Shown piece after piece: positions 14,915 to 26,520 of a stretch of 64,000 nucleotides of DNA (the first letter of the stretch is position 1; each line of letters opens with the position of its first letter). The notes under the pieces are model-generated. The model ran no database searches. It was not told the DNA's origin and worked only from the letters and a program-made list of their open reading frames with translations. The DNA is from Gammaproteobacteria bacterium (lineage in GTDB: Bacteria; Pseudomonadota; Gammaproteobacteria; Steroidobacterales; Steroidobacteraceae). Location of the stretch: assembly GCA_025357835.1 (NCBI GenBank), contig JANYLM010000146.1, positions 1-64,000 on the forward strand. The letters are read 5' to 3'. The translations under genes were made by a program, and so were the position numbers.

Positions 14915-15358
14915 ATGCATGACAAATACTTACGCGGAGCGGCTTTGGTGGCCGCTCTCACCCTGTGGCAGGTCTTTGCGTTCGCGGCCGGCACCCCACC
15001 CTCTTCCCCCTCCGCGTCCGCGGCCGTCGAGCAATTGATGGACAAGGACCTGATGGGTGTTCCCGGCAAAGAACTTTTGATGCTGACGGTCGAGTATCTT
15101 CCAGGCGGCGCTTCCTTGCCGCACCGGCACGACGCCCAGGTGTTCGTCTACGTACTCGAAGGTGAACTGACCATGCAGGTCGCGGGCAGCCCTGCGGTCA
15201 CGCTGCGGCCGGGTCAGACCTTTTACGAAAATCCCACCGATGTACACCTTGTCTCAGCCAATGCAAGCAAGACTGCACCCGCGAAAATTCTCGTGTTCAT
15301 GGTGAAAGACAAGAAGGCTCCGGTAACGCGCGGCATCGCGCCCAAGGAAAAGCCATGA
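14915..15358 (+). CDS. exported cupin-domain protein
   Basis: A 147-residue protein with an N-terminal signal peptide (basic start, hydrophobic LVAALTLWQVFAFA, cleavage near AFAAG) and one cupin barrel. Motif 1 includes SLPHRHDAQ and motif 2 RPGQTFYENPTDVHL. The HRH and later His residues can bind a metal. The start at 14915 (ATG) is preferred; a GTG at 14903 would add four residues. It overlaps the next gene by 4 nt (ATGA), so it is translationally coupled to the TlpA-like protein. Role unknown; the operon suggests periplasmic redox or metal chemistry. Confidence 0.8.
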   Translation: MHDKYLRGAALVAALTLWQVFAFAAGTPPSSPSASAAVEQLMDKDLMGVPGKELLMLTVEYLPGGASLPHRHDAQVFVYVLEGELTMQVAGSPAVTLRPGQTFYENPTDVHLVSANASKTAPAKILVFMVKDKKAPVTRGIAPKEKP

Positions 15359-16392
15359 ATACCATCAAAGCAATCTGCAGTCTTGCCTTGCTCTGCTGGT
15401 CTCTAGGCGCCACGCCCGCCCTGGCGGTAATCGACGGCCAGCAACGCGCACAGGCGGCCGGCCGTGCGATGCTGGGTACCCCAGCACCGAGATTGACGCT
15501 CAAGACCATTGACGGCGAAACTATCGATCTCGGCAGTCTCTACGGCAAGAAAGCCGTATATCTGAAGTTTTGGGCCACCTGGTGCGTGCCCTGCCGACAG
15601 CAAATGCCGCATTTCGAGCACACCTACGAAACGGCGGGACCGGATATGGCCGTCATCGCCATCGATGTCGGATTCAACGATTCCATCGAGGCCATCCAGA
15701 CTTTTCGCAAAAAGCTCGGGATCACCATGCCCATCGTCTTCGACGATGGCAGATTGGGTTCCGCTTTCCACCTTCGGGTCACGCCGACACACATAGTCAT
15801 CGGACGAGACGGCCGGATACAGTATGTCGGGCACCTAGCCGACAAGGACCTGGATACGGCGCTGGTCGCGGCGCGGGCGCCCGCCACCCACGGGCCGCAT
15901 GCCGAGGCCGTTGCGAACCAGGATTCACCGCCCATTGGAATCGGCGACATGCTGCCGAAGAAATCGCTGCGAACTTTGGACGGGCAGCGCTTCGAGCTAC
16001 AAAACGGCGGCGCGCAGCAAAAAGCAACCGCGCTGGTGTTCTTGTCACCCTGGTGTGAGTCCTATCTGGCGATCACGAGGCCAGAGGTTTCCGAGAACTG
16101 CCGCAAGGCCCGCGAGCAGGTCGGCGCCCTGACCGGCGATCCACGAGTGCGCTGGCTGGGAATCGCGTCCGGACTGTGGGCGAATTCCGCTGATCTGCGG
16201 GAGTATCGAGCAAAGTACAAGGTGACGATACCGCTCACCCTGGACGCATCGGGCGAGGTGTTCCGCGCGTTTCGAGTGAACGACGTCCCAACCGTCCTCA
16301 TCGCCGCCGCGGGTGACCGCATGGTGCGCCGTATCGAAGGCGGCGCGACGCTGGATGCCGCCACCTTAACCCAGGCTCTCGATACCCGCTAG
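15355..16392 (+). CDS. exported tandem thioredoxin-like protein (TlpA/redoxin type)
   Basis: A 345-residue protein with a signal peptide (LALLCWSLGATPALA) and two thioredoxin-fold units. The first (about 40-175) has the TlpA-type active site WCVPC, C77 and C80, and the cis-Pro segment RVTPTHIV. The second (about 192-345) keeps the layout (FLSPWCESY, NDVPTVLI), but its CxxC is reduced to C234 alone, with another Cys at 249. The first unit can act as a periplasmic disulfide reductase; the second may be structural or bind substrate. It is coupled to the cupin gene by a 4-nt overlap and is followed by the MBL gene after about 50 nt. Confidence 0.85.
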   Translation: MNTIKAICSLALLCWSLGATPALAVIDGQQRAQAAGRAMLGTPAPRLTLKTIDGETIDLGSLYGKKAVYLKFWATWCVPCRQQMPHFEHTYETAGPDMAVIAIDVGFNDSIEAIQTFRKKLGITMPIVFDDGRLGSAFHLRVTPTHIVIGRDGRIQYVGHLADKDLDTALVAARAPATHGPHAEAVANQDSPPIGIGDMLPKKSLRTLDGQRFELQNGGAQQKATALVFLSPWCESYLAITRPEVSENCRKAREQVGALTGDPRVRWLGIASGLWANSADLREYRAKYKVTIPLTLDASGEVFRAFRVNDVPTVLIAAAGDRMVRRIEGGATLDAATLTQALDTR

Positions 16393-16441
16393 AATTGAGG
16401 CCCGCACGAATCACTGTGCGTTTAAGAAGGCACGCACGCCC

Positions 16442-17398
16442 ATGTTCATTCGAGCCCTGGCACTGGCGGGTACATTTTACGGAGTTTGCGCCGGCGGCGC
16501 CGTGCCGATCGCGCCCGGTACCTATCTCATCGAGGGTGAAGCCACACCAAACCGCCAGCCCGACGGCAACAGCGTTATTATCGAGGCGCCGCAGGGATTG
16601 ATCGTTATCGACAGCGGCCGCCACAAGGAACATTCACAGCGAGTACTGGATTTTGCCCACGCCCAGGACCGGCCCATCGCCGCCATTATCAACTCACACT
16701 GGCACTTGGATCACGTCGGCGGCAATCCGCGCCTGCGCGCCGCGTTTCCCGGCATCCGTGTCTACGCAAGTTCGGCGATCGATGCCGCCCGCACGGGATT
16801 TCTCGTCGACTATCGCGCGCAATTGGTAACGGAAATCGCGGCCTCCGCAAAAAATCCCCAAGCGCAGGAATCCATGCGCGCAGAAGTCGCGTTGATCGAT
16901 CAGGGAGCCGCGCTCGGCCCGACCGACGTAATCGCGAAATCCGCGCCCCTGAACATTGCCGGACGCACCTTGCAGCTGCATCTGGAATCGCACGCGGTCA
17001 CCGCCGGCGATGTCTGGGTTTTCGATCCCGAGACGCGCGTGCTCCTGGCGGGTGATCTTGTGACCCTGCCGGCGCCGTTGTTCGAAAGTGCCTGTCCGGC
17101 GCGTTGGCGCACCTCGTTGGCGCGCCTCGAGAAAACGCCCTTCGATTGGCTGGTGCCCGGGCACGGCGCACCCATGCGCAAGCAGGGGCTTAACGTCTAT
17201 CGCAAGGCATTTTCCAATTTGCTCGAATGCGCGGCCGCAGATGCGGGGAAAAACCACTGTGTCGACGGCTGGATCAACGACGCGTCCGTGCTCATCGATT
17301 CCAAAGACGTGAGCTACGCGAGAACGCTTGTCGGCTACTACGTGGAGAATTACCTGCGCCATCCCACCGAACGCATACAGAAATTTTGCAGCAACTAG
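16442..17398 (+). CDS. exported metallo-beta-lactamase-fold hydrolase
   Basis: A 318-residue MBL-fold protein with a weak signal peptide (IRALALAGTFYGVCAGGA). Zinc motif HWHLDH gives H86, H88, D90 and H91; further ligands are H184, D205 and H241 in LVPGHGAP. The arrangement is that of general MBL hydrolases of the quinoprotein-relay/SoxH and subclass B3-like group rather than a proven beta-lactamase. It ends 3 nt before the convergent outer-membrane protein gene. Its position after the cupin and TlpA-like genes suggests a joint periplasmic role. Substrate unknown. Confidence 0.8.
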   Translation: MFIRALALAGTFYGVCAGGAVPIAPGTYLIEGEATPNRQPDGNSVIIEAPQGLIVIDSGRHKEHSQRVLDFAHAQDRPIAAIINSHWHLDHVGGNPRLRAAFPGIRVYASSAIDAARTGFLVDYRAQLVTEIAASAKNPQAQESMRAEVALIDQGAALGPTDVIAKSAPLNIAGRTLQLHLESHAVTAGDVWVFDPETRVLLAGDLVTLPAPLFESACPARWRTSLARLEKTPFDWLVPGHGAPMRKQGLNVYRKAFSNLLECAAADAGKNHCVDGWINDASVLIDSKDVSYARTLVGYYVENYLRHPTERIQKFCSN

Positions 17399-17401
17399 TC
17401 C

Positions 17402-18733
17402 TCAAAACGGATAGTTGAGCCCGGTGAACGCCGCGACGCCCTCGCTGCCGTAGCCAAGATCGACATATCCGACCACGAAGGGCCGCGCGATGCCGCGGAA
17501 CCCCACACCAAAGACATGGTGGAGATTACTCAGGGGATTCGTACTCGTTCGCCCAAACACCCGGCCGACATCGAGGAAGGGGGTCAACTCCACGTCCACG
17601 ACGGTCGAGGTGGCATCGAAAGACAGGACCTTGCGGCGCAGCTCCACACTGGCGGAAAAGGAATCGCGATCGTAGAAACGCCCGGAGCCGAAGCCGCGCA
17701 ACGGCTGGGGGCCGCCGATCAGGGTACTACCCCCGCCGATACTGCTGAGCGCCCAGAAGGGTACGCCGTGCGAAGTCGGCAAATAACGTATCGACACATG
17801 TCCGGCCACGATCGTGTCCCGCGCAATGGGCCAAAACACGCGCCCGTCGGCTCCCACTTCGCTGTACATGGACTCGTTCACCAAGCCATTGCGGCTGGAC
17901 AGGCCGCCATAGGCAACCAATTGCAGGCCGCGGCTGGGTACGGTCTGGTCATCGCGGGTGTCATAGACCAGGGATAGGCGATTGACGAATTGCTTGTTGG
18001 TACCCACCCCCAGGATGCGGCCGAAGCGGCTTTCGAGGGTCGCGATCTTCGCCAATGTCCCGGGCAGCACCTCGACGACCTGCAGGCGCGCGGTGTAGAG
18101 CAATTGCCAGGCATGAGTCAGATTCAGGCCGGCCTGAATCATTATCTGTTCCTGCGACTTGGTGTAATTCGTTTCGTTGATCGCGGGCGATTTATTACCG
18201 ATGCCGAAGAAACGCGGGGTACCGTCGCGATCGAATATCAGACTGGCATTGAACGACCAGCGACCCTGGCGCAGGCGCCCGCGTTGATACTCGGCATCGA
18301 ACTCGCGTTCGACGCGCTCCTTGATCCCCGCCACCACCGACCATTGTTCGTCCTCGGAAGGGAAACCAAAGATGCGTCCGTGAATACCGTAGCCGAAATA
18401 AGGATTGTGAAGCACATCAGGCGCGATGATGCGATCGATCTCGTGATTCTCATTGGCATGCAGCCAGGTCGGAATGACACCCAGCGTCGTACCGCTGTTC
18501 GGATCAACGTCTATTTCAGGCACTGGAATGAACGGCGCCGTGGCAGGATTGAACCACCTCGACAGACCCTTGCTGGATGTGCCAGGCGGCAGCGGGATGG
18601 GACCGGGCACCGGTGCCTGGGTCGGCTCATTCTCGGGTGTGACCGCCCAGGATGCACTCGTCAGCAGTACTGCGAGCAGCACCGAACTGCGGCGCATGCG
18701 CCGCATCAGGCGGGTCTTGACCTCGGCATTCAC
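17402..18733 (-). CDS. BamA/TamA-family (Omp85-like) outer membrane barrel protein
   Basis: A 443-residue protein with a signal peptide (MRRSSVLLAVLLTSASWA) and a C-terminal surface-antigen (D15) barrel: alternating aromatic strands, VYDTRDDQTVPSRGLQ, LRGFGSGRFYDRD, and a terminal Phe (LNYPF) as the outer-membrane insertion signal. The N-terminal part is too short for the five POTRA domains of BamA, so it is a stand-alone Omp85 relative. Its start overlaps the nucleotidyltransferase stop by 4 nt, making it the last gene of a six-gene operon. It may deliver or expose the operon product at the outer membrane; this is inference. Confidence 0.8.
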   Translation of the reverse strand: MNAEVKTRLMRRMRRSSVLLAVLLTSASWAVTPENEPTQAPVPGPIPLPPGTSSKGLSRWFNPATAPFIPVPEIDVDPNSGTTLGVIPTWLHANENHEIDRIIAPDVLHNPYFGYGIHGRIFGFPSEDEQWSVVAGIKERVEREFDAEYQRGRLRQGRWSFNASLIFDRDGTPRFFGIGNKSPAINETNYTKSQEQIMIQAGLNLTHAWQLLYTARLQVVEVLPGTLAKIATLESRFGRILGVGTNKQFVNRLSLVYDTRDDQTVPSRGLQLVAYGGLSSRNGLVNESMYSEVGADGRVFWPIARDTIVAGHVSIRYLPTSHGVPFWALSSIGGGSTLIGGPQPLRGFGSGRFYDRDSFSASVELRRKVLSFDATSTVVDVELTPFLDVGRVFGRTSTNPLSNLHHVFGVGFRGIARPFVVGYVDLGYGSEGVAAFTGLNYPF

Positions 18734-19497
18734 TGTCCGGCTACCGACAAGGGCTGAAGCTGCGGCAACACTTCATGCGCGGCGCGCACCACGTCGGTGG
18801 GAAAATCGATCTCGATCCACGGCGCCCCGGTCACATCGGCTACCTCGAAGACGTGGCTGCGCTCGCGCAGCAAATCGCGCACCGCTTCTTCATGGGGCAT
18901 ATGCGCGCAGTCGCGCGCGACATAGTCTGCCACCAGCGCCGCAAGCCGGCGCGCGCCGGCATGATCGAAGCGGAAGAAGCCAACCGACTCGCCGATGGTG
19001 TCGTACTTCAAATCCGCCGCGAGCTGCTTGCGCAATTCGATGGGCACGCCGCCGCTAATGCATAGCTTGACGGGCTCGTCGCCGGCCTCGAAATCGCGGT
19101 CGATCAGCACGCGGTTGACCGATTGCTGGCCCGCCACCAGCGCGTTCGCGATGCGCTCGTCGTACAGCACATCGGCATCCATCAACAGAACGTCGCCGCC
19201 GCGGGTCATGGCGTCGGCAACGGTGTGCACGGTCAGCACACTGCCGAGTTCGAAGCGCGGATTCAGCACGATCTCGGGCCGGGGCTGCCAGCGCAACCGG
19301 TCGAGTTCGGCCTCCACCCGTTCGTGACGGTAGCCAAGCGCCAAAACGATGTCGTGAACACCGGCATTTTTGAGCACGCGCAAATGCCGTTCGAGCAGGC
19401 TCATGGCGCCGAATTGCAGCAGGCATTTGGGCATCTGCCTGTCGTCGGCTTGTTGCAGTCGCAGGCCGCGGCCGGCCGCGAGAATAATGGCGCGCAT
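18730..19497 (-). CDS. sugar/alcohol-phosphate nucleotidyltransferase (phosphocholine cytidylyltransferase-like)
   Basis: A 255-residue NTP-transferase with the signature ILAAGRGLRL at the N-terminus, the Lys-containing PKCLLQFG, and VLLMDADVLYD as the metal-binding Asp segment. The size and pattern match the family annotated as phosphocholine or inositol-phosphate cytidylyltransferases, which make CDP-alcohols. It sits in an operon with a CDP-alcohol phosphotransferase, so a CTP:phospho-alcohol cytidylyltransferase is the likeliest role. The alcohol is not known. It overlaps the downstream barrel protein by 4 nt. Confidence 0.82.
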   Translation of the reverse strand: MRAIILAAGRGLRLQQADDRQMPKCLLQFGAMSLLERHLRVLKNAGVHDIVLALGYRHERVEAELDRLRWQPRPEIVLNPRFELGSVLTVHTVADAMTRGGDVLLMDADVLYDERIANALVAGQQSVNRVLIDRDFEAGDEPVKLCISGGVPIELRKQLAADLKYDTIGESVGFFRFDHAGARRLAALVADYVARDCAHMPHEEAVRDLLRERSHVFEVADVTGAPWIEIDFPTDVVRAAHEVLPQLQPLSVAGQ

Positions 19498-19530
19498 TGA
19501 AATCCTTTGGATAATTTGGCGGCGGGAATA

Positions 19531-20511
19531 TTACACGGCGGCAGTGCGGGCGCGCGACGCAAGGTGCAGGTACAGCAGGCCCGGCGCACCCAGCAGAAGT
19601 TCGCGTGCCCGCTTCGCGAGGGACAGTGCCAATGCCGCGTCGGGCGGCAGGCCCGCCAGCGGCGCGAGCAGCAAGTATCCGCCCTCCTGCACACCAAGCG
19701 CACCGGGAATGGCGAAGGCCGCGCCGCGAATGGCTTGCCCCAGGCTTTCCAGCAGCAACGCATCCATCCATCCCACCGGACGATGAATAAGCTGCAAAAT
19801 CAGATATACCTCACCGGTGCCGACCAGCCAACCGACCAAGCTCAATAAAAAACTGGCGGCCACCGGCCCGCCGCGGCCGTAGGTGAGCTGCACTTCGACA
19901 TCGATGGCTTCAGCCTGGTTCATCCACCGCGACCAATCGCGCTTGCCTGAAAATCGCGTGGCGGCGCGCATCACCTTGCTGAAGAAGCCACGCCGCTGCA
20001 TCCAATAAAATCCCCCCACCTGCAGCGCCAGCAGGCCGCTCGCTATTAACGACGAGGTACGCAGCGCCTGCTCTGAAATATGGCTGGCCTGCGCGCTCGC
20101 CAAGGCAGCGCCCAGAAGCGCGAAAGCGATTTGCGCGAAGGTTTGCAGCGTGGTGCTGACCGTAATGGCCGCGGCCGCGTTCTGCATGCTCATACCGCGC
20201 TGCGCCAGATGGCGAGCCATCAGCACCGGGCCGCCGATCTGCCCTGCCGGCATCAAGCTATTGGCGGATTCACCCGCCCAGCGCGCTAGCAGTGCATCTC
20301 GCATGGAATCGCGCGCCTTGCCGCCGACGAACAACACACGAATCGCCACGGCATCGAGCAGCAGCGGCAGCAGATGAAATAGCGCAACCAGCACCAGTCC
20401 CCAGCCGGCCAGCGCCAGGGTGGCCACCACCGCCGGCAGTCCTTGCGAGACCAGCAGACCGATGAACAGCAGCACACCCGCCGACAAGGCCCAGGCCGCC
20501 GCCTGCGTCAT
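19531..20511 (-). CDS. flippase-like integral membrane protein (lysylphosphatidylglycerol synthase TM domain)
   Basis: A 326-residue protein with about 8 hydrophobic segments and the LPG_synthase_TM pattern (AGESANSLMPAGQIGGPVLMARHL, here split over residues about 79-102; later FAIPGALGVQEGGYLL). Members of this group flip or modify lipids; the aminoacyl-transferase domain of MprF is absent, leaving only the flippase-type part. It overlaps the 2OG oxygenase by 4 nt. In this operon it could flip the product lipid across the inner membrane. Confidence 0.8.
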   Translation of the reverse strand: MTQAAAWALSAGVLLFIGLLVSQGLPAVVATLALAGWGLVLVALFHLLPLLLDAVAIRVLFVGGKARDSMRDALLARWAGESANSLMPAGQIGGPVLMARHLAQRGMSMQNAAAAITVSTTLQTFAQIAFALLGAALASAQASHISEQALRTSSLIASGLLALQVGGFYWMQRRGFFSKVMRAATRFSGKRDWSRWMNQAEAIDVEVQLTYGRGGPVAASFLLSLVGWLVGTGEVYLILQLIHRPVGWMDALLLESLGQAIRGAAFAIPGALGVQEGGYLLLAPLAGLPPDAALALSLAKRARELLLGAPGLLYLHLASRARTAAV

Positions 20512-21341
20512 ACGCTTGCGCCTCCCGCGGCGGCGCGATCCTTGCGGTGGCGGCGAAATACCTGGCGAAAGCCGAAGTAAGCGACCGCGTCCTTCAAATT
20601 GGAAATGACACGCCGCCAGGGACGCATGGTCGGGTCCGTCACGTATTCAAAGGTCAGCGACACACGCATTTCATTTTGGGCCAGCGGCGTGATGCGGTGG
20701 CGTAATTTGTCTCCGTCGAAAAACACCAACCCCCCCGGTGGGAGTCGCACCGAACCCGGCACCATCCCGACACCGGGCTCACGCGTGTGCAATTCGTAGT
20801 CCAGCCGGCACGAGGATTCGTCGACGACACCCAGCAGCAAGGTGTAGCGGCGGCCGGCATAATAAGAAGTATCGTAGTGCCAACCGATGTGGTCGCCGGG
20901 TCGCGTATAAAAATACAGCGCATAGGCGTGCGGATCCTGGGGCGGAGACTGTTGCAAGCGTTCGCCGGCCAGCCGCCCCAGCCAATCGATCAGGGTCGGC
21001 GAGCGATATAGATCGGCAACGAACGGCGCCAGACGGTCGATGGTGTGGCGGCTTACGCTGCCGCCCTGCTTGTGGCCCGGCAGGAAATTGCGGTTCACCG
21101 ATGCCCTTACCGCGCCGACGGCGGCGGTCAGTTTCGCAGTGATTTCGGGCGCCAGAAAGTCCTCTAGATAGACGAAAGCACCCTGCGCAACGAACTCACG
21201 GCGCAGGGGTTCCACCGCGAAGTTCCGCAGCCGCAAATTCATGAATTGCTCGGCATTCGGCGCCGTTTGATTTGCGCCAATTCGCACAGACGCGGTAATG
21301 CTCTGCGGAAGCTGGCCGCTCCCCGTATCGGGCGCGGCCAT
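20508..21341 (-). CDS. 2-oxoglutarate/Fe(II)-dependent oxygenase
   Basis: A 277-residue double-stranded beta-helix oxygenase. The iron triad is visible: H155 and D157 in GWHYDTSYY and H215 in DKLRHRITPL, followed by R226 as the likely 2-oxoglutarate anchor. GGLVFFDGDKL is typical of prolyl-hydroxylase-like members. Its ATG directly follows the TAA of the preceding CDP-alcohol phosphotransferase gene; an internal Met34 is an alternative start. It would hydroxylate a substrate of the operon pathway, perhaps the lipid head group or an acyl chain. That is inference. Confidence 0.8.
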   Translation of the reverse strand: MAAPDTGSGQLPQSITASVRIGANQTAPNAEQFMNLRLRNFAVEPLRREFVAQGAFVYLEDFLAPEITAKLTAAVGAVRASVNRNFLPGHKQGGSVSRHTIDRLAPFVADLYRSPTLIDWLGRLAGERLQQSPPQDPHAYALYFYTRPGDHIGWHYDTSYYAGRRYTLLLGVVDESSCRLDYELHTREPGVGMVPGSVRLPPGGLVFFDGDKLRHRITPLAQNEMRVSLTFEYVTDPTMRPWRRVISNLKDAVAYFGFRQVFRRHRKDRAAAGGASV

Positions 21342-22004
21342 TTAGTGCGCGACCCGCGCGGCCTGACGCCGCGGCACCCGACGGTAGTCGATCACCACCC
21401 AGACAGCGAACAGCGGAGCGCACAGCGCCGCCGCAACCAGAAACGGCAGTACGGCATCGCCAAGAGTCACCAGAGGCAGCAAGTACAACACGTCTTCGGT
21501 TTCGAACCCACCCAACGAGCCTTGTCGGCTGGCAGCCTTGCCGGCCATGTCCTCGATGCGCATGCGCAAAAAGAAAATCAGCGCGATGGCGCAGCCGGCA
21601 AGCAGTCCGAGCACGGCCGGAGGGATCTGCAAGGAGTTCGCTGGATTGTCACCCACGCCGATGCCGATGGCGATAAACAGCAGTATGGTCACCACGGCGT
21701 CGCTTGCCAGGTCGTATACATGTCCGATCCGGCTACTTTTGCCGCTTATGCGCGCCAATTCGCCATCCGTATGATCTAGAAAATTAGACAAGACCAGCAG
21801 CAACGCGGCCAGATTCGACCAAACGTAGGTTCCGGGTAGAAACGCCGCTGCGGCCGCAAGACCCACCCCTAAGCGGACCGTTGTCAGGTGATTGGGCGTG
21901 ACCCAGCTATCTTTGAGCGGCGCGACCAGATGGCGTGCCAGGCGCGCATCCCATGGACGCTGCGCCACGGGGCCTGAATACCTTGTACGCTCGGGTGTCG
22001 ACAT
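21342..22004 (-). CDS. CDP-alcohol phosphotransferase family membrane protein
   Basis: A 220-residue membrane protein with the complete family motif D-x2-D-G-x2-A-R-x8-G-x3-D-x3-D: D77, D80, G81, A84, R85, G94, D98 and D102. About six hydrophobic segments follow. Such enzymes join a CDP-alcohol to an alcohol acceptor, releasing CMP, as in phospholipid synthesis. It is distinct from pgsA at 23416-24018 and is flanked by the Rieske gene (9-nt gap) and the 2OG oxygenase (0-nt gap). With the nucleotidyltransferase it makes a plausible two-step head-group transfer route. Confidence 0.85.
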   Translation of the reverse strand: MSTPERTRYSGPVAQRPWDARLARHLVAPLKDSWVTPNHLTTVRLGVGLAAAAAFLPGTYVWSNLAALLLVLSNFLDHTDGELARISGKSSRIGHVYDLASDAVVTILLFIAIGIGVGDNPANSLQIPPAVLGLLAGCAIALIFFLRMRIEDMAGKAASRQGSLGGFETEDVLYLLPLVTLGDAVLPFLVAAALCAPLFAVWVVIDYRRVPRRQAARVAH

Positions 22005-22013
22005 GATGCGGGC

Positions 22014-23111
22014 TTATTCGATGGGCTTGCCGCAGCGAGCCAGTACGGCGCGAAGGTCGCGTATGGGCGGAAACACTTCATTGTTCCAGTCCGCGCCCTG
22101 GGCGTCATAGGCCCGCTGTTCGTGTTCCACGATCTCCTTATCCTCGCGGAAAATATTTTCCGTAAACCAAGTCACGAATGGCCACACCGCGTGAATGATT
22201 CCCGGCATTCGCGGCTTCTTCACCGATAAGTAGCCGTAGGTGCGATTGGTGCGCTGCTCGGCGTCCAGCGGCGTATAGCCCAGCCACACGTCGAGCACCG
22301 GATCATCGGATTGCTGGATGTCGCGCCCCACCCAGACCTTCAGGCTCTGGGTTGGATAGTCGGTGCGAATCCGCATATGGTCGCAGAAATCCTTCTTGGC
22401 CTCGCCGCGCTTGCGCATCAAGTCCACGATGACGTGTTCGCCCATCGAGGATTTCCCTTCGGTACGGCTGAAGCTGTATTCCACCTGCGCCCAATCGTCG
22501 CCGTGTTGCCTCCCTAAGCACCGGGCCCTGATCGAGCCCATCTGCTTGCGGTGCATGAACTGGTGATTCATGTCGAAAAGATTCTCGTGCATGAAAGTGT
22601 AGTGGCAAGCCACTTCGCGGTTAAGCTGCCGCGTCTTGTAGTCCTTGCGCTGCGAGGAACCCAGACCCCCGGGCAGTCGGCTCTGCGCCAAGGCCGCATC
22701 GCCGGGAAAGACGAAGATCAGGCCGTCCAGTTCGCGCGCGGGATAGCTCTTGACTCCGGTTGGCAGCCGATCCGTGCCGAGATAGGGCACGTTCACGCAT
22801 TTTCCCGTCCGATTGTAAGTCCAGCCGTGATAATGGCACTTGAGCTCATCGCCGCTCACCACCCCAAGGTGCAAGGGCACCTGGCGGTGCGCGCAGCGAT
22901 CCTCGAGTGCGAACACCTGCCCGCTCTTGCCGCGGTAGAGCACAATGGGCAGCCCGGCGAAACGGCGCCCGAGCGTTTTGCCTGTCTTGAGTTCTTCGGA
23001 CCAGGCCATGGGATACCAATGATCGGGATGCGCGCCCACACGACGCAAGTCGAGTGCGTTCGGTGAATTAGCGGCAGATATGCTGACTAGCTGGGAACTG
23101 TCTTCGGACAT
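22014..23111 (-). CDS. Rieske non-heme iron oxygenase, alpha-subunit type
   Basis: A 365-residue oxygenase. The Rieske 2Fe-2S ligands are C73 and H75 (CAHR) and C92 and H95 (CHYH). The mononuclear iron site reads NLFDMNHQFMH with D180, H183 and H187; the three-residue spacing between the two His is that of carbazole-dioxygenase-like and other single-component-type Rieske enzymes. No reductase or ferredoxin gene is adjacent, so electrons must come from elsewhere. It is the first gene of the six-gene operon and starts about 38 nt from the 3' end of tRNA-Cys on the same strand. Substrate unknown. Confidence 0.85.
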   Translation of the reverse strand: MSEDSSQLVSISAANSPNALDLRRVGAHPDHWYPMAWSEELKTGKTLGRRFAGLPIVLYRGKSGQVFALEDRCAHRQVPLHLGVVSGDELKCHYHGWTYNRTGKCVNVPYLGTDRLPTGVKSYPARELDGLIFVFPGDAALAQSRLPGGLGSSQRKDYKTRQLNREVACHYTFMHENLFDMNHQFMHRKQMGSIRARCLGRQHGDDWAQVEYSFSRTEGKSSMGEHVIVDLMRKRGEAKKDFCDHMRIRTDYPTQSLKVWVGRDIQQSDDPVLDVWLGYTPLDAEQRTNRTYGYLSVKKPRMPGIIHAVWPFVTWFTENIFREDKEIVEHEQRAYDAQGADWNNEVFPPIRDLRAVLARCGKPIE

Positions 23112-23149
23112 CGTCGGGTTCCAGTCGATGCCCGGGATGGTACCCGAAA

Positions 23150-23223
23150 TGGAGGCTAGGAGCGGAATCGAACCGCTGTACGCGGCTTTGCAGGCCGCTG
23201 CATGACCACTCTGCCACCTAGCC
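23150..23223 (-). tRNA. tRNA-Cys (anticodon GCA)
   Basis: A 74-nt gene with acceptor stem GGCTAGG/CCTAGCC, anticodon loop CTGCAAA giving GCA, T-arm GGTTCGATTCC and encoded CCA. It lies downstream of pgsA and tRNA-Gly in the order seen in E. coli (glyW-cysT). A terminator-like hairpin separates it from tRNA-Gly. Confidence 0.97.
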
Positions 23224-23229
23224 TTGGTG

Positions 23230-23261
23230 AAAAATAACCAACCCCGGACTTGCCGGGGTTG
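23230..23261 (-). terminator. intrinsic terminator-like hairpin between tRNA-Gly and tRNA-Cys
   Basis: On the minus strand a 9-bp GC-rich stem (CAACCCCGG, loop CAAGT, CCGGGGTTG) is followed by GGTTATTTTT. Plus-strand arms are 23239-23247 and 23253-23261. It could end the pgsA/tRNA-Gly transcript or act as a processing site in a common tRNA precursor. Confidence 0.6.
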
Positions 23262-23272
23262 TGGTCAGAAAC

Positions 23273-23348
<76 letters not shown>

Positions 23349-23415
23349 CCTAAACAGACGCGCAATTGTAGGGCCGCGCCGCCGAGAGTCAAGGAGAACG
23401 CAGTGCGAAATGGCG

Positions 23416-24018
23416 CTAAAGCCTTGAACTACCCCGCAATTCGGGCCAAGCCAAGCGTAGGTATTGAACCATGGACCAGAGCGTGAGCACCGCCGCCACG
23501 GCCGTCAACACCAACCCCAACTTGTACGTCGGGATGCCGAAAAGGTTCTGCCGAAACAGCAACAGCGACAGTCCGACGATCTGCATAATGGTCTTGTACT
23601 TGCCCAGCACCGACACCTTGATGCGAGCCCGGGCGCCGATTTCAGCCATCCATTCACGCAGCGCCGACACAGCGATTTCGCGGCCGATGATGACCACCGC
23701 GACTATGACCATGAACCAGCGCGGATCCTTGCTGACGATCAATACCAATGCGGCGGCAACGATGAGTTTGTCGGCGACCGGGTCCAAGAAGGCGCCCAGG
23801 CGCGAAGTTTGGCCCAATTTGCGGGCGTAATAACCGTCCAAGCTGTCGGTTATGCCGGCCAGAGCGAAAGCCGCGCACGCCGCCGGATCGGCGTAGGGAT
23901 AGGGTAGCAAGTAAAACAACGCGAGGATCGCGGGAATCATCAAAATGCGCAGCCACGTCAGCGTGTTCGGCACATTCCAATGCGATTGACCGTCAGCGCC
24001 CTGGGTGGAGGTGCTCAT
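23416..24018 (-). CDS. pgsA: CDP-diacylglycerol-glycerol-3-phosphate 3-phosphatidyltransferase
   Basis: A 200-residue membrane protein with the CDP-alcohol phosphotransferase motif DSLDGYYAR...GAFLDPVADK (all four Asp present) and a typical PgsA start NVPNTLTWLRI. It makes phosphatidylglycerol phosphate, the committed step to phosphatidylglycerol and cardiolipin. It overlaps uvrC by 26 nt and is followed by tRNA-Gly and tRNA-Cys, the classical gammaproteobacterial order. Confidence 0.95.
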   Translation of the reverse strand: MSTSTQGADGQSHWNVPNTLTWLRILMIPAILALFYLLPYPYADPAACAAFALAGITDSLDGYYARKLGQTSRLGAFLDPVADKLIVAAALVLIVSKDPRWFMVIVAVVIIGREIAVSALREWMAEIGARARIKVSVLGKYKTIMQIVGLSLLLFRQNLFGIPTYKLGLVLTAVAAVLTLWSMVQYLRLAWPELRGSSRL

Positions 24019-25876
24019 AAATTACCTCGGCGAGCTCGCGCCCTAACCCTCGGATTTGCACGAAATCCTCGACTCCGGCACGCAAAATCCCCTGCAAGCC
24101 ACCGAACTGTTTCAGTAGCTCGCGTCGTTTGACGGGCCCCAAGCCCGGAATAGTTTCCAGTATCGACTGGTTATGACGCTTGGCCCGTTTGCGCCGGTGT
24201 CCCGTGATCGCGAAACGATGCGCTTCGTCGCGCACGCGCTGAATCAGATGTAGGGCTCGCGAGTCCGCAGCCAGTATAGTGGGCGTCCCCTGCCCCAACA
24301 AGAACAGTTGCTCCTGGCCCGGTCGCCGGTCGGCGCCCTTGGCGACGCCTATCAACATAATTCCGTCCATGCCCAGCTCCTTAAGCACCGCGGCAGCCTC
24401 AGCAAGCTGTCCCTTGCCACCGTCGATGAGCAAGATGTCCGGCTTGGGAGTTTCGCCGTCGCGCACGCGCTTATACCGCCGCGTCAGAGCCTGGTGCATG
24501 GCGGCATAGTCATCGCCGGGTTGAATCCCGCCGATGTTGAAGCGCCGGTAATCGCTCTTGATCGGACCCTCCTCGCCGAACACCACGCACGAAGCCACCG
24601 TATCGGTGCCGCCGGTGTGACTGATGTCGAAGCATTCGATGCGGTTCGGCGCCTCCTCCAGATCAAAGGCCTCGCGCAAATCTTCCAGGCTGGACTCGAT
24701 GCTGGCGCGCGCCAGGCCGCGCATGGTCAGCGCCTGTTCGGCGTTGTTGTGCATCATCTCTAGCCAGCGCGCGCGAATGCCGCGCACCGAGGCGGCAATG
24801 CGCACCTTGCGGCCGGAGCGCTGTGCCAGAGTCGCCTCGAGCAGGGTCATTTCATCGAACTCGCTCTCGACGATGATTTCCTGCGGCGCCTCTCGATCCA
24901 GATAGTACTGCGTGACGAAGGCCGCCAGGACTTCTGCCGGCTCGGCCAGAGGAGCTTTGGGAAAAAATGTCGTGCTCCCCAAGCTTTGGCCGGCGCGAAT
25001 GAACATTAAGGCCACGCAGTACTCGCCGTTGCCCGCCGCGACCGCAATGACGTCTGCATCGTGATCGATGTCGGCGGTAACGATTTGCTGCGCCTGAACG
25101 GCCTTGAGTTTCGCCATCTGGTCGCGCAGCTGCGCGGCCTCTTCGAAGTGCAGGCGCTCCGCGGCTGCCTCCATACGACGGCCGAGGTCCTGGCTCACCT
25201 CGTCGTTGCGCCCTTCCAGTACCTTGATGGCCGCGCCCACGTCGTGTGCGTAACTGTCCTTGGAAATGAGGCCCACGCAGGGCGCCGTGCAGCGCTGGAT
25301 CTGGTATTGCAAGCACGGCCGCGAACGATTGGCGAAGTAGGTATCGTCGCAATTTCGCAGGCGAAATAGCTTCTGCACCTGCTGCAAGGTCTCGCGCACC
25401 GCGCCGGCCGACGGGTAAGGCCCGAAGAACCGCCCCGGCTGCTTGCGCGATCCCCGGTAAAAGGCGAGGCGCGGAAACTCGTGCTGGGTGTCGAAATGTA
25501 GATAGGGAAAGCTCTTATCGTCGCGCAATACCACGTTGAATCGCGGCCGATACTTTTTGATGAGATTGAATTCCAGCAACAGCGCTTCGGTGTCGGAATT
25601 CGTGATGGTGACTTCCATGCTCGCGGTTTTCGCGACCAGCGCCAGGACCTTGGGCTGCATGTTGCTGGGCAGAAAGTACGACCCCACCCGGCTCTTGAGA
25701 TTGCGCGCCTTGCCCACGTACAGAATCTCGGCCTTCGCATCGAGCATTCGGTAGACGCCCGGACGGCCCGGCAGGCTATCGACGAAGGCTTTGGCGTCGA
25801 ATGGGGCCGCGGCAGCGTTTGCGGGCGCAGCCGCCGGGCCGGGCAAGGCCAGGGGTGATTTTCGCTCCGCGTTCAT
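23993..25876 (-). CDS. uvrC: excinuclease ABC subunit C
   Basis: A 627-residue protein of normal UvrC length. It has an N-terminal GIY-YIG domain (PGVYRMLD...ILYVGKARNLKSR), a UVR motif region (RMEAAAERLHFEEAAQLRDQ), a C-terminal RNase H-like endonuclease part (RIECFDISHTGG) and helix-hairpin-helix ends (ETIPGLGPVKRRELLKQFGG). It makes both incisions in nucleotide excision repair with UvrA and UvrB. It overlaps the UDG gene by 4 nt and pgsA by 26 nt. Confidence 0.97.
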   Translation of the reverse strand: MNAERKSPLALPGPAAAPANAAAAPFDAKAFVDSLPGRPGVYRMLDAKAEILYVGKARNLKSRVGSYFLPSNMQPKVLALVAKTASMEVTITNSDTEALLLEFNLIKKYRPRFNVVLRDDKSFPYLHFDTQHEFPRLAFYRGSRKQPGRFFGPYPSAGAVRETLQQVQKLFRLRNCDDTYFANRSRPCLQYQIQRCTAPCVGLISKDSYAHDVGAAIKVLEGRNDEVSQDLGRRMEAAAERLHFEEAAQLRDQMAKLKAVQAQQIVTADIDHDADVIAVAAGNGEYCVALMFIRAGQSLGSTTFFPKAPLAEPAEVLAAFVTQYYLDREAPQEIIVESEFDEMTLLEATLAQRSGRKVRIAASVRGIRARWLEMMHNNAEQALTMRGLARASIESSLEDLREAFDLEEAPNRIECFDISHTGGTDTVASCVVFGEEGPIKSDYRRFNIGGIQPGDDYAAMHQALTRRYKRVRDGETPKPDILLIDGGKGQLAEAAAVLKELGMDGIMLIGVAKGADRRPGQEQLFLLGQGTPTILAADSRALHLIQRVRDEAHRFAITGHRRKRAKRHNQSILETIPGLGPVKRRELLKQFGGLQGILRAGVEDFVQIRGLGRELAEVIYEHLHPGR

Positions 25877-26520
25877 CCCGGCCGCGCAGCGAGCGCGAGG
25901 TCACGCGCCCTGCTGATAACGCCCTCGAACATGACGGTCGTCAGCCGCCGCGTCTGGGTGTTGTAGCGGCTGCAATGATAGGAATCCACCAACACCCGGC
26001 CGGCGCCCAGCGAGTATTCCGCCGCATGCGCAAAGCGATGCGCGCCGATCGGTAGATCACTGGCGCGTAGCACCGCCGCGTGGGCGATGGCTCCCAGCGC
26101 CAGGATCACCTGTAACTTAGGACTTTGCCTAAGCTCGGCGCGAAGAAATGTATTGCAGATCTTTATTTCCGCGGGCAGCGGTTTGTTGGCGGGCGGCAGG
26201 CACTTCACCGCATTGGTAATGCGCGCCCCGGAGAGCTTCAGACCATCATCGGCGGCGGTGGAAACGGGGCCGCTGGCCAGCCCGAACTTATGCAGGGTGG
26301 CGTACAGGAGTATTCCGGCATGATCCCCGGTAAAGGGCCGGCCGGTGCGATTAGCGCCGTGCATGCCCGGCGCCAAGCCGACGATGAGTAATCGCGTGTC
26401 GGGATCGCCAAATGCCGGAACCGGACGACAAAAATAATCCGGCTCATCCAAGCGCACGGTATCGAGAAATGCGGCTAGGCGCGGACAGCGGCGACAACCG
26501 GAATCAAAAGTGCTGTTCAT
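25873..26520 (-). CDS. uracil-DNA glycosylase, family 5 (UDGb) type
   Basis: A 215-residue glycosylase. Motif A reads GLAPGMHGANRTGRPFTGD, matching family 5 (UDGb), which lacks the polar catalytic residue of family 1. The C-terminal motif reads SYHCSRYNTQTRRLT; here the usual HPS is HCS. Paired cysteines (CRRC near residue 9; C106 region and the later Cys) may hold the Fe-S cluster of this group. It removes uracil or deaminated bases in base excision repair. Its stop overlaps the uvrC start (ATGA), coupling two repair genes. An intrinsic terminator ends about 30 nt upstream of its ATG. Confidence 0.85.
   Translation of the reverse strand: MNSTFDSGCRRCPRLAAFLDTVRLDEPDYFCRPVPAFGDPDTRLLIVGLAPGMHGANRTGRPFTGDHAGILLYATLHKFGLASGPVSTAADDGLKLSGARITNAVKCLPPANKPLPAEIKICNTFLRAELRQSPKLQVILALGAIAHAAVLRASDLPIGAHRFAHAAEYSLGAGRVLVDSYHCSRYNTQTRRLTTVMFEGVISRARDLALAARPG

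Follow-up and report, generated by a model that had tools for sequence, protein, structure and literature searches.

A six-gene operon in a gammaproteobacterium that probably attaches phosphonate or phosphate head groups to hopanoids

The operon and its conserved core

The stretch of DNA analyzed here (the window) comprises 64,000 nucleotides of contig JANYLM010000146.1 from a gammaproteobacterium of the Steroidobacteraceae (assembly GCA_025357835.1, labelled G000; other genomes and loci carry numbers prefixed with G and L). On the minus strand at 17402-23111, an operon encodes a Rieske oxygenase, a cytidine diphosphate (CDP)-alcohol phosphotransferase, an Fe(II)/2-oxoglutarate (2OG) oxygenase, the membrane protein HpnL, a nucleotidyltransferase and an Omp85-superfamily barrel (Table 1). 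On balance, we favor reading this operon as the part of a pathway that attaches the head group of a hopanoid phosphono- or phospholipid, and as a variant without phosphoenolpyruvate (PEP) mutase (PepM) of a previously predicted phosphonolipid cassette (PMC5987646). All six open reading frames (ORFs) of the initial annotation were recovered at their places and their family assignments were borne out by Pfam and NCBIfam. The protein previously described as a lysylphosphatidylglycerol-synthase-type flippase can be specified as HpnL, scoring 307.3 bits against the TIGR03476 cut-off of 195.65. From the Rieske to the Omp85 gene, the five junctions measure +9, 0, -4, +33 and -4 nt; the gaps of 9, 0 and 33 nt had been correctly described, and of three reported overlaps only two exist, each of 4 nt. 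As also described earlier, the active-site motifs are intact. These are D(x)2DG(x)2AR(x)8G(x)3D(x)3D in the phosphotransferase, LAAGxGxRL...PK in the nucleotidyltransferase, CxH...CxxH in the Rieske protein, and HxD (HYD) with a distal His, invariant in alignments, in the 2OG enzyme.

Four of the six genes, encoding the CDP-alcohol phosphotransferase, 2OG oxygenase, HpnL and nucleotidyltransferase, make up a core that is widely conserved. When species genomes were scanned with the CDP-alcohol phosphotransferase (its gene is hereafter the CDP gene), 93 relatives were retrieved, and 80 loci were kept from proteobacterial metagenome-assembled genomes (MAGs), Paraburkholderia/Burkholderia, and Nostoc-type and other cyanobacteria. 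In 23 of the 80 loci (L014-L035 and L055, representing proteobacterial MAGs and Paraburkholderia/Burkholderia), the genes follow one another as CDP gene, 2OG, HpnL, nucleotidyltransferase, a recurrence far in excess of chance. The cyanobacterial loci of this set showed no HpnL close to the core. Co-occurrence in other genomes, proposed as a check in the initial annotation, therefore holds for the four core genes, and the Rieske and Omp85 genes are looser partners. The genome sets used below are not independent. The genomes of 49 of the 80 loci overlap slightly with a set of 98 relatives (L014, L016, L018 and L026 apparently equal G008, G011, G023 and G021), and P. xenovorans LB400 (G109) is counted both among these 49 and in a set of 200 genomes of its family, which we take to be the Burkholderiaceae.

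Several further features were observed around the CDP gene. Two neighboring copies are found at L040, L047 and L060, which are two Brasilonema loci and one gammaproteobacterial MAG. A large protein of about 750-810 aa (cluster c58) adjoins the core at L108:11088-13511 (G010), L111:7860-10118 (G019) and L036:7534-9792. A B12-binding radical SAM protein (cluster c7) is encoded near the CDP gene at L049:8017-9684 and at 22 further cyanobacterial loci. The best NCBIfam match of the L049 protein is a PhpK-type P-methyltransferase family (76 bits, cut-off 600), and the cluster possibly provides a further phosphonate or hopanoid tailoring step. The MAG records at L048, L083 and L085 are titled Klebsiella pneumoniae, carry hopanoid genes together with the cassette CDP gene, and look like mislabelled bins.

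Table 1. Features of the operon and the neighboring tRNA gene in the window
Feature	Position	Strand	Basis
Rieske oxygenase (Rieske and VanA_C), ortholog of a hopanoid-linked family	22014..23111	-	Pfam, NCBIfam
CDP-alcohol phosphotransferase (CDP-OH_P_transf), core gene of the cassette	21342..22004	-	Pfam, NCBIfam
HalD/BesD-type Fe(II)/2OG oxygenase, HxD present, probably a hydroxylase and not a halogenase	20508..21341	-	Pfam, NCBIfam, fold
HpnL membrane protein	19531..20511	-	TIGR03476 over cut-off
PntC/LicC-like cytidylyltransferase (MobA-like NTP transferase)	18730..19497	-	Pfam, NCBIfam, fold
Omp85-superfamily outer-membrane barrel; located downstream of the AEP genes in the nearest PepM-positive loci	17402..18733	-	Pfam, NCBIfam
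tRNA-Cys, just upstream of the operon	23150..23223	-	

Phosphonate chemistry and the loss of PEP mutase

In many loci from proteobacteria and cyanobacteria, the nucleotidyltransferase gene is followed by genes for the synthesis of 2-aminoethylphosphonate (AEP), namely PepM, phosphonopyruvate decarboxylase (Ppd) and AEP aminotransferase (PhnW). One representative of each scores over its curated cut-off, and the EDKxxxxxNS motif is present in all 31 ORFs of the PEP mutase cluster. A first search with a single Nostoc query missed Ppd at L015, L017, L018 and L021; it was found in all four upon re-search. PEP mutase exceeds its cut-off in 42 of the 49 genomes of CDP loci, compared with none of 14 control genomes, and G108 and G143 have PepM only as fragments at contig ends. 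Among the 200 genomes of the LB400 family, 112 have PEP mutase at E 1e-70, with 111 over cut-off, and 113 have the CDP gene at E 1e-20. Both occur jointly in 110 genomes, the CDP gene alone in three (G211, G289, G319) and PepM alone in two (G154, G336). Core ORFs are short or broken in G289 and G319, and the core of G211 looks intact. The co-occurrence is not mere linkage, because the PepM and CDP genes of LB400 are about 1.8 Mb apart on one replicon.

The nucleotidyltransferase provides a second connection to AEP. Its structural model (pLDDT 92.8), compared with 350,542 PDB chains by Foldseek, matches the AEP cytidylyltransferase PntC of T. denticola best by E-value (6pd2; E 2.8e-18, TM 0.81), with inositol-phosphate cytidylyltransferases and LicC ranking behind. 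Residues R13 and K24 align with R15 and K25 of PntC, both reported as needed for activity, and E104 of the T. denticola enzyme lies near the amine (PMC6697681). In the nucleoside triphosphate (NTP) transferase domain that is fused to PepM in some genomes, the catalytic Arg is absent from all 34 readable cases (G in 20, E in 10, N in 3, D in 1; three of 37 are too short). The separate enzyme retains LAAGxGxRL in 53 of 56 sequences; one of the other three has Arg before Met and two lack the stretch. Since the fused domain lacks the catalytic Arg, it may be inactive and is disfavored as AEP activator, and the separate enzyme is the likelier candidate.

The 2OG enzyme is modelled with a pLDDT of 82.4, and its best matches are HalD, HalB and BesD together with their hydroxylase homologue. 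It scores 45.4 bits for Pfam HalD (cut-off 26) and 26.3 bits for BesD (cut-off 450). Halogenation was set aside based on the HxD motif and the low BesD score. Within 9 kb of the CDP gene, the 80 loci contain either a HalD-like gene (49 loci) or a PhyH-type gene resembling PhnY (7 loci) and never both; 24 loci, several of them on short contigs, have neither. Two PhyH-type proteins were scanned, and their only NCBIfam match at the thresholds used was the methylphosphonate hydroxylase PhnY at 208 and 207 bits (E 1.5e-61 and 4e-61), below the cut-off of 500. The mutual exclusion suggests that HalD-like and PhyH-type proteins are two enzymes for one step, the hydroxylation next to phosphorus. Hydroxy-AEP appears in the abbreviation list of PMC5987646.

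The window lineage has lost PEP mutase. No PEP mutase exceeds the cut-off in the 94.4% complete genome G000, where the best TIGR02320 match reaches 104.9 bits against 319.55, and G001, G008, G010, G014, G019, G021 and G027 have no match at E 1e-45. Among the 11 CDP-bearing relatives, PepM is present in G023 and G047, absent from eight, and reduced to a truncated remnant (288.7 bits) in G011. A search of window positions 15001-26000 revealed no Ppd match, and no Ppd or transaminase ORF lies between the nucleotidyltransferase and Omp85 genes. In the six nearest PepM-positive loci (L015, L017-L021), the order is nucleotidyltransferase, PepM, Ppd, PhnW, Omp85, and in the window the first and last of these genes directly overlap. 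The simplest account would be that three genes were lost from between them. Locus L016 of G011 carries what reads as the scar of a single deletion that starts within PepM and stops close to the Ppd end. There, an ORF follows PEP mutase to residue 220 and continues as the decarboxylase end (36 codons, E 1.6e-11). The fused NTP domain is gone and an intact-looking transaminase ORF follows the chimera.

The core has been maintained despite the absence of PepM. All four core genes are present in seven of nine PepM-less or PepM-truncated genomes and are under purifying selection. Most pairs within the window clade have dN/dS values of about 0.05-0.18, with two CDP pairs at 0.20 and 0.23 and a pair including a G014 copy with a deletion at 0.43; other computed pairs (PepM-positive or Paraburkholderia) range from 0.03 to 0.28. 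Synonymous sites are near saturation in these estimates and one Omp85 pair was not computable. No residue is fixed differently between PepM-less and PepM-positive enzymes in the nucleotidyltransferase, 2OG or CDP alignments, so a substrate switch visible in the sequence was rejected. Columns were flagged if a residue was shared by all but one PepM-less and at most 10% of PepM-positive sequences. The only internal nucleotidyltransferase column flagged, and not a fixed one, is window residue 153 (Ile in 7 of 8 PepM-less, Val in 36 of 40 PepM-positive sequences). Flagged columns elsewhere are confined to ragged ends in 2OG, are absent in CDP and number four in HpnL, two of them internal. The CDP alignment includes L110 with an internal deletion, which lowers its count of invariant columns. 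In a four-protein tree, the PepM-less P. phosphatilytica and G211 fall among PepM-positive relatives. Because of this placement, the core has probably outlived PepM at least three times, in P. phosphatilytica, G211 and the window clade. Nodes inside the window clade are weak, and with the PepM-positive L021 placed within it, single and multiple losses are indistinguishable.

Association with hopanoid genes

Squalene-hopene cyclase (SHC) exceeds its cut-off in all 11 CDP-bearing relatives compared with 30 of the 98 relatives overall. The same is true for 47 of the 49 genomes of CDP loci (missing in G108 and G141) and for 112 of 113 CDP-bearing genomes of the LB400 family (missing in G301), where 136 of 200 genomes are SHC-positive. 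These 136 genomes comprise 109 with PepM and the CDP gene, three with the CDP gene alone, one with PepM alone and 23 with neither. The 64 SHC-negative genomes include one with the CDP gene and two with PEP mutase. The CDP gene is hence nearly confined to SHC genomes, as a hopanoid accessory gene would be. Physical proximity points in the same direction. In many gammaproteobacterial MAGs, the core is flanked by genes for HpnA, HpnG, HpnN and squalene synthase; some cyanobacteria have HpnI and HpnJ genes near it, and some members of the LB400 family have HpnN-like genes there. In the close window relatives G001 and G027, the PepM-less operon adjoins SHC, HpnG and HpnA. The window genome has its hopanoid locus elsewhere (G000:C6), with SHC, HpnA, HpnH, HpnJ and a second HpnL over their cut-offs and HpnG just below. 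The lipid acceptor is thus probably a hopanoid.

The Rieske gene shows its own association with hopanoid producers. Orthologues were found in 37 of 53 selected genomes, corresponding to 37 of 48 SHC-positive and none of five SHC-negative genomes, and including genomes without the CDP gene. The two cyanobacteria included in the test (G124, G132) yielded none. In G105 the gene is close to HpnH, and it stands beside Omp85 in two SHC-positive congeners without the CDP gene (L159:7716-10556 in G003 and L165:8558-11009 in G015), which suggests an older Rieske-Omp85 hopanoid pair. In the nine other regions examined, the Rieske gene is apart from recognized hpn genes. An arrival at the time of PepM loss was rejected based on close orthologues in PepM-positive genomes and in SHC-positive genomes lacking the CDP gene. 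The protein is best read as a putative hopanoid oxygenase that joined the operon. The Omp85 gene follows the core, directly or beyond the AEP genes, in several of the closer window relatives.

The surroundings of the operon consist upstream of tRNA-Cys, tRNA-Gly and pgsA. A promoter-like site precedes the tRNA genes and a terminator-like hairpin lies between them, in a region with four promoter-like and ten terminator-like sites compared with 1.7 and 6.8 in shuffled sequences. The operon may be transcribed from a promoter before the tRNA genes or from one of its own. Convergent with the operon on the plus strand (15355-17398) are genes for a thioredoxin-like protein and a metallo-beta-lactamase-fold protein, the latter with quinoprotein relay hydrolase as best NCBIfam match (86 bits, cut-off 300).

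Head group, acceptor and relation to known systems

From these associations we infer substrates, reactions and the order of steps. The ancestral head group would have been AEP made by PepM, Ppd and PhnW. The nucleotidyltransferase would activate a small aminoalkyl phosphonate or phosphate with CTP, and the CDP-alcohol phosphotransferase would transfer the head group from CMP to the hydroxyl of a bacteriohopanepolyol. The 2OG enzyme would hydroxylate the head group, probably next to phosphorus, the Rieske enzyme might oxidize the hopanoid part, and HpnL and the Omp85 barrel might move the product towards the outer membrane. After deletion of the AEP genes, the window lineage would obtain its head group from elsewhere, be it scavenged AEP, phosphoethanolamine or another compound. 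The lipid head-group pathway proposed in the initial annotation stands in outline for the predicted nucleotidyl activation and CDP-alcohol phosphotransfer; connections to phosphonates and to hopanoids, and the lack of PepM in this genome, had been overlooked.

The same cassette could instead act on diacylglycerol, forming an ordinary phosphonoglycerolipid pathway that coincidentally resides in hopanoid producers. A choline/ethanolamine phosphotransferase (E 0.00037) is among the remote sequence relatives that the phosphotransferase has in the PDB, and such enzymes use diacylglycerol. The general phosphonolipid pathway shown in PMC5987646, where the main text has no occurrence of 'hopan' and the abbreviations include DAG and AAG, would fit as well. 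Diacylglycerol occurs universally, whereas the CDP gene is almost restricted to SHC-positive genomes and has hpn genes as neighbors in several lineages, which makes this alternative unlikely. Inositol chemistry of the IPCT/DIPPS kind, yielding a compatible solute or an inositol lipid, would agree with the best NCBIfam matches, all below cut-off, in which the nucleotidyltransferase hits IPCT/DIPPS and the phosphotransferase hits archaetidylinositol phosphate synthase, and with IPCT ranking just behind PntC by fold. Given the co-occurrence with PepM and the PntC match itself, we regard this as very improbable.

The present head group of the window lineage is less clear-cut. Phosphoethanolamine or another endogenous phospho-alcohol may have replaced AEP, exchanging a C-P for a C-O-P bond with unchanged enzymes. 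The two head groups are one oxygen apart, PepM apparently disappeared on at least three occasions without loss of the core, no AepX importer was matched, and the core enzymes show no group-fixed difference. The 2OG enzyme has been kept intact, though hydroxylation next to phosphorus would not suit a phosphate ester. Phosphate esters would not survive a step analogous to hydroxylation of the phosphorus-adjacent carbon. We also know of no characterized PntC that uses phosphoethanolamine, and we hold this substitution as a tentative possibility short of probable. Alternatively, the organism might scavenge environmental AEP and still make an AEP-hopanoid, as choline scavengers do with LicC. Core enzymes about as constrained as in AEP makers and a nucleotidyltransferase whose best structural match is AEP-specific would be consistent with such scavenging. 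AepX (TIGR03261), the only known AEP importer searched, has no match in 26 genomes of the window family including G000, and its matches in four members of the LB400 family are all below cut-off. Uptake through AepX was accordingly discarded for the window organism, and scavenging in general appears somewhat unlikely.

Several observations weigh against the favored hopanoid reading. Of the 136 SHC-positive genomes of the LB400 family, 24 lack the CDP gene. Genomes are smaller than 3 Mb in 18 of the 20 SHC-negative genomes listed (of 64), and genome size may explain part of the SHC contrast. The counts for SHC and PepM co-occurrence are raw and uncorrected for relatedness or genome size, and the acceptor could be a glycerolipid. 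The CDP gene is also absent from five of seven PepM-positive genomes among the 98 relatives, hence PepM also serves other products. With PepM gone, the window organism appears to have no known source of AEP. Two of the nine PepM-less or PepM-truncated relatives (G014 and G019) have internal core deletions, and their core may be decaying, although assembly error could also be responsible. In G014:C391 (L110) and G019:C52 (L111), operon-internal deletions have brought distant core genes into fusion or direct contact.

Hopanoids rank among the main bacterial substitutes for sterols and serve as geological biomarkers. Hopanoid phosphonolipids, with AEP or hydroxy-AEP on bacteriohopanepolyols, may constitute an unrecognized lipid class, a proposal that we rate slightly below an even chance. 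The genes occur in more than half of the 200 genomes of the P. xenovorans family, in Nostoc-type cyanobacteria and in Gammaproteobacteria, and several lineages including that of the window would keep the attachment machinery after losing C-P synthesis, supplying it with a head group that is scavenged or substituted. Should a polar phosphonate decorate the hopanoids of many producers, current inventories of these lipids may miss a head group. Phosphonate synthesis would then have a role in the membranes of these bacteria and cyanobacteria, and a testable context would emerge for HpnL. Lineages without PepM would represent a natural experiment on head-group swapping. The two findings that merit laboratory testing are the connection to hopanoids and the persistence of the core in the absence of C-P synthesis.

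The predicted phosphonolipid cluster was, presumably, reported by Gagunashvili and Andresson in 2018. In a lichen Nostoc and a Burkholderia, it includes a CDP-alcohol transferase, OG-Fe(II), NTPT, pepM, ppd, AEPT and hpnL (PMC5987646). The window shares the four-gene core of CDP-alcohol phosphotransferase, OG-Fe(II) oxygenase, NTP transferase and hpnL. It differs in that pepM, ppd and AEP transaminase genes are not adjacent, in that no pepM of the genome exceeds the cut-off, and in the added Rieske and Omp85 genes. The nucleotidyltransferase shares with PntC and LicC the PF12804 fold and the catalytic Arg and Lys positions (PMC6697681). It has only 23% identity to 6pd2, is not fused to a transaminase, and by our reading of the alignment has D107 in place of T. 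denticola E104 (Asp also in LicC), with E196 conserved as E203. The 2OG enzyme shares the fold and the Pfam HalD family with the lysine halogenases HalD/BesD and their hydroxylase homologue. It differs in missing the BesD cut-off and in having HxD, as HalD/BesD halogenases lack the acidic iron ligand. The Rieske domain is shared with the 4beta-methylsterol monooxygenase SdmA, the best NCBIfam match (E 1e-43), and the protein remains far below the SdmA cut-off (149.7 versus 600 bits), falling outside that family.

In Acetobacteraceae, pepM has been linked to hopanoid or terpenoid genes and an 'undiscovered terpene-phosphonate' was suggested (PMC8776678); the linkage resembles the one found here, in another lineage and with no transferase core described in the part consulted. 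The functions of hpnA, hpnB and hpnL have been described as not established (PMC12583986). The literature searched (titles and abstract starts, mostly without subscription journals) held no description of a hopanoid phosphonolipid or a hopanoid Rieske enzyme. The statement in the initial annotation that no characterized pathway has this gene set remains fair, as that literature yielded a prediction (PMC5987646) and no characterization. Relative to the predicted cluster, the new elements are a probable hopanoid lipid as acceptor, the loss of PepM with the core kept, and a Rieske enzyme belonging to a hopanoid-linked oxygenase family.

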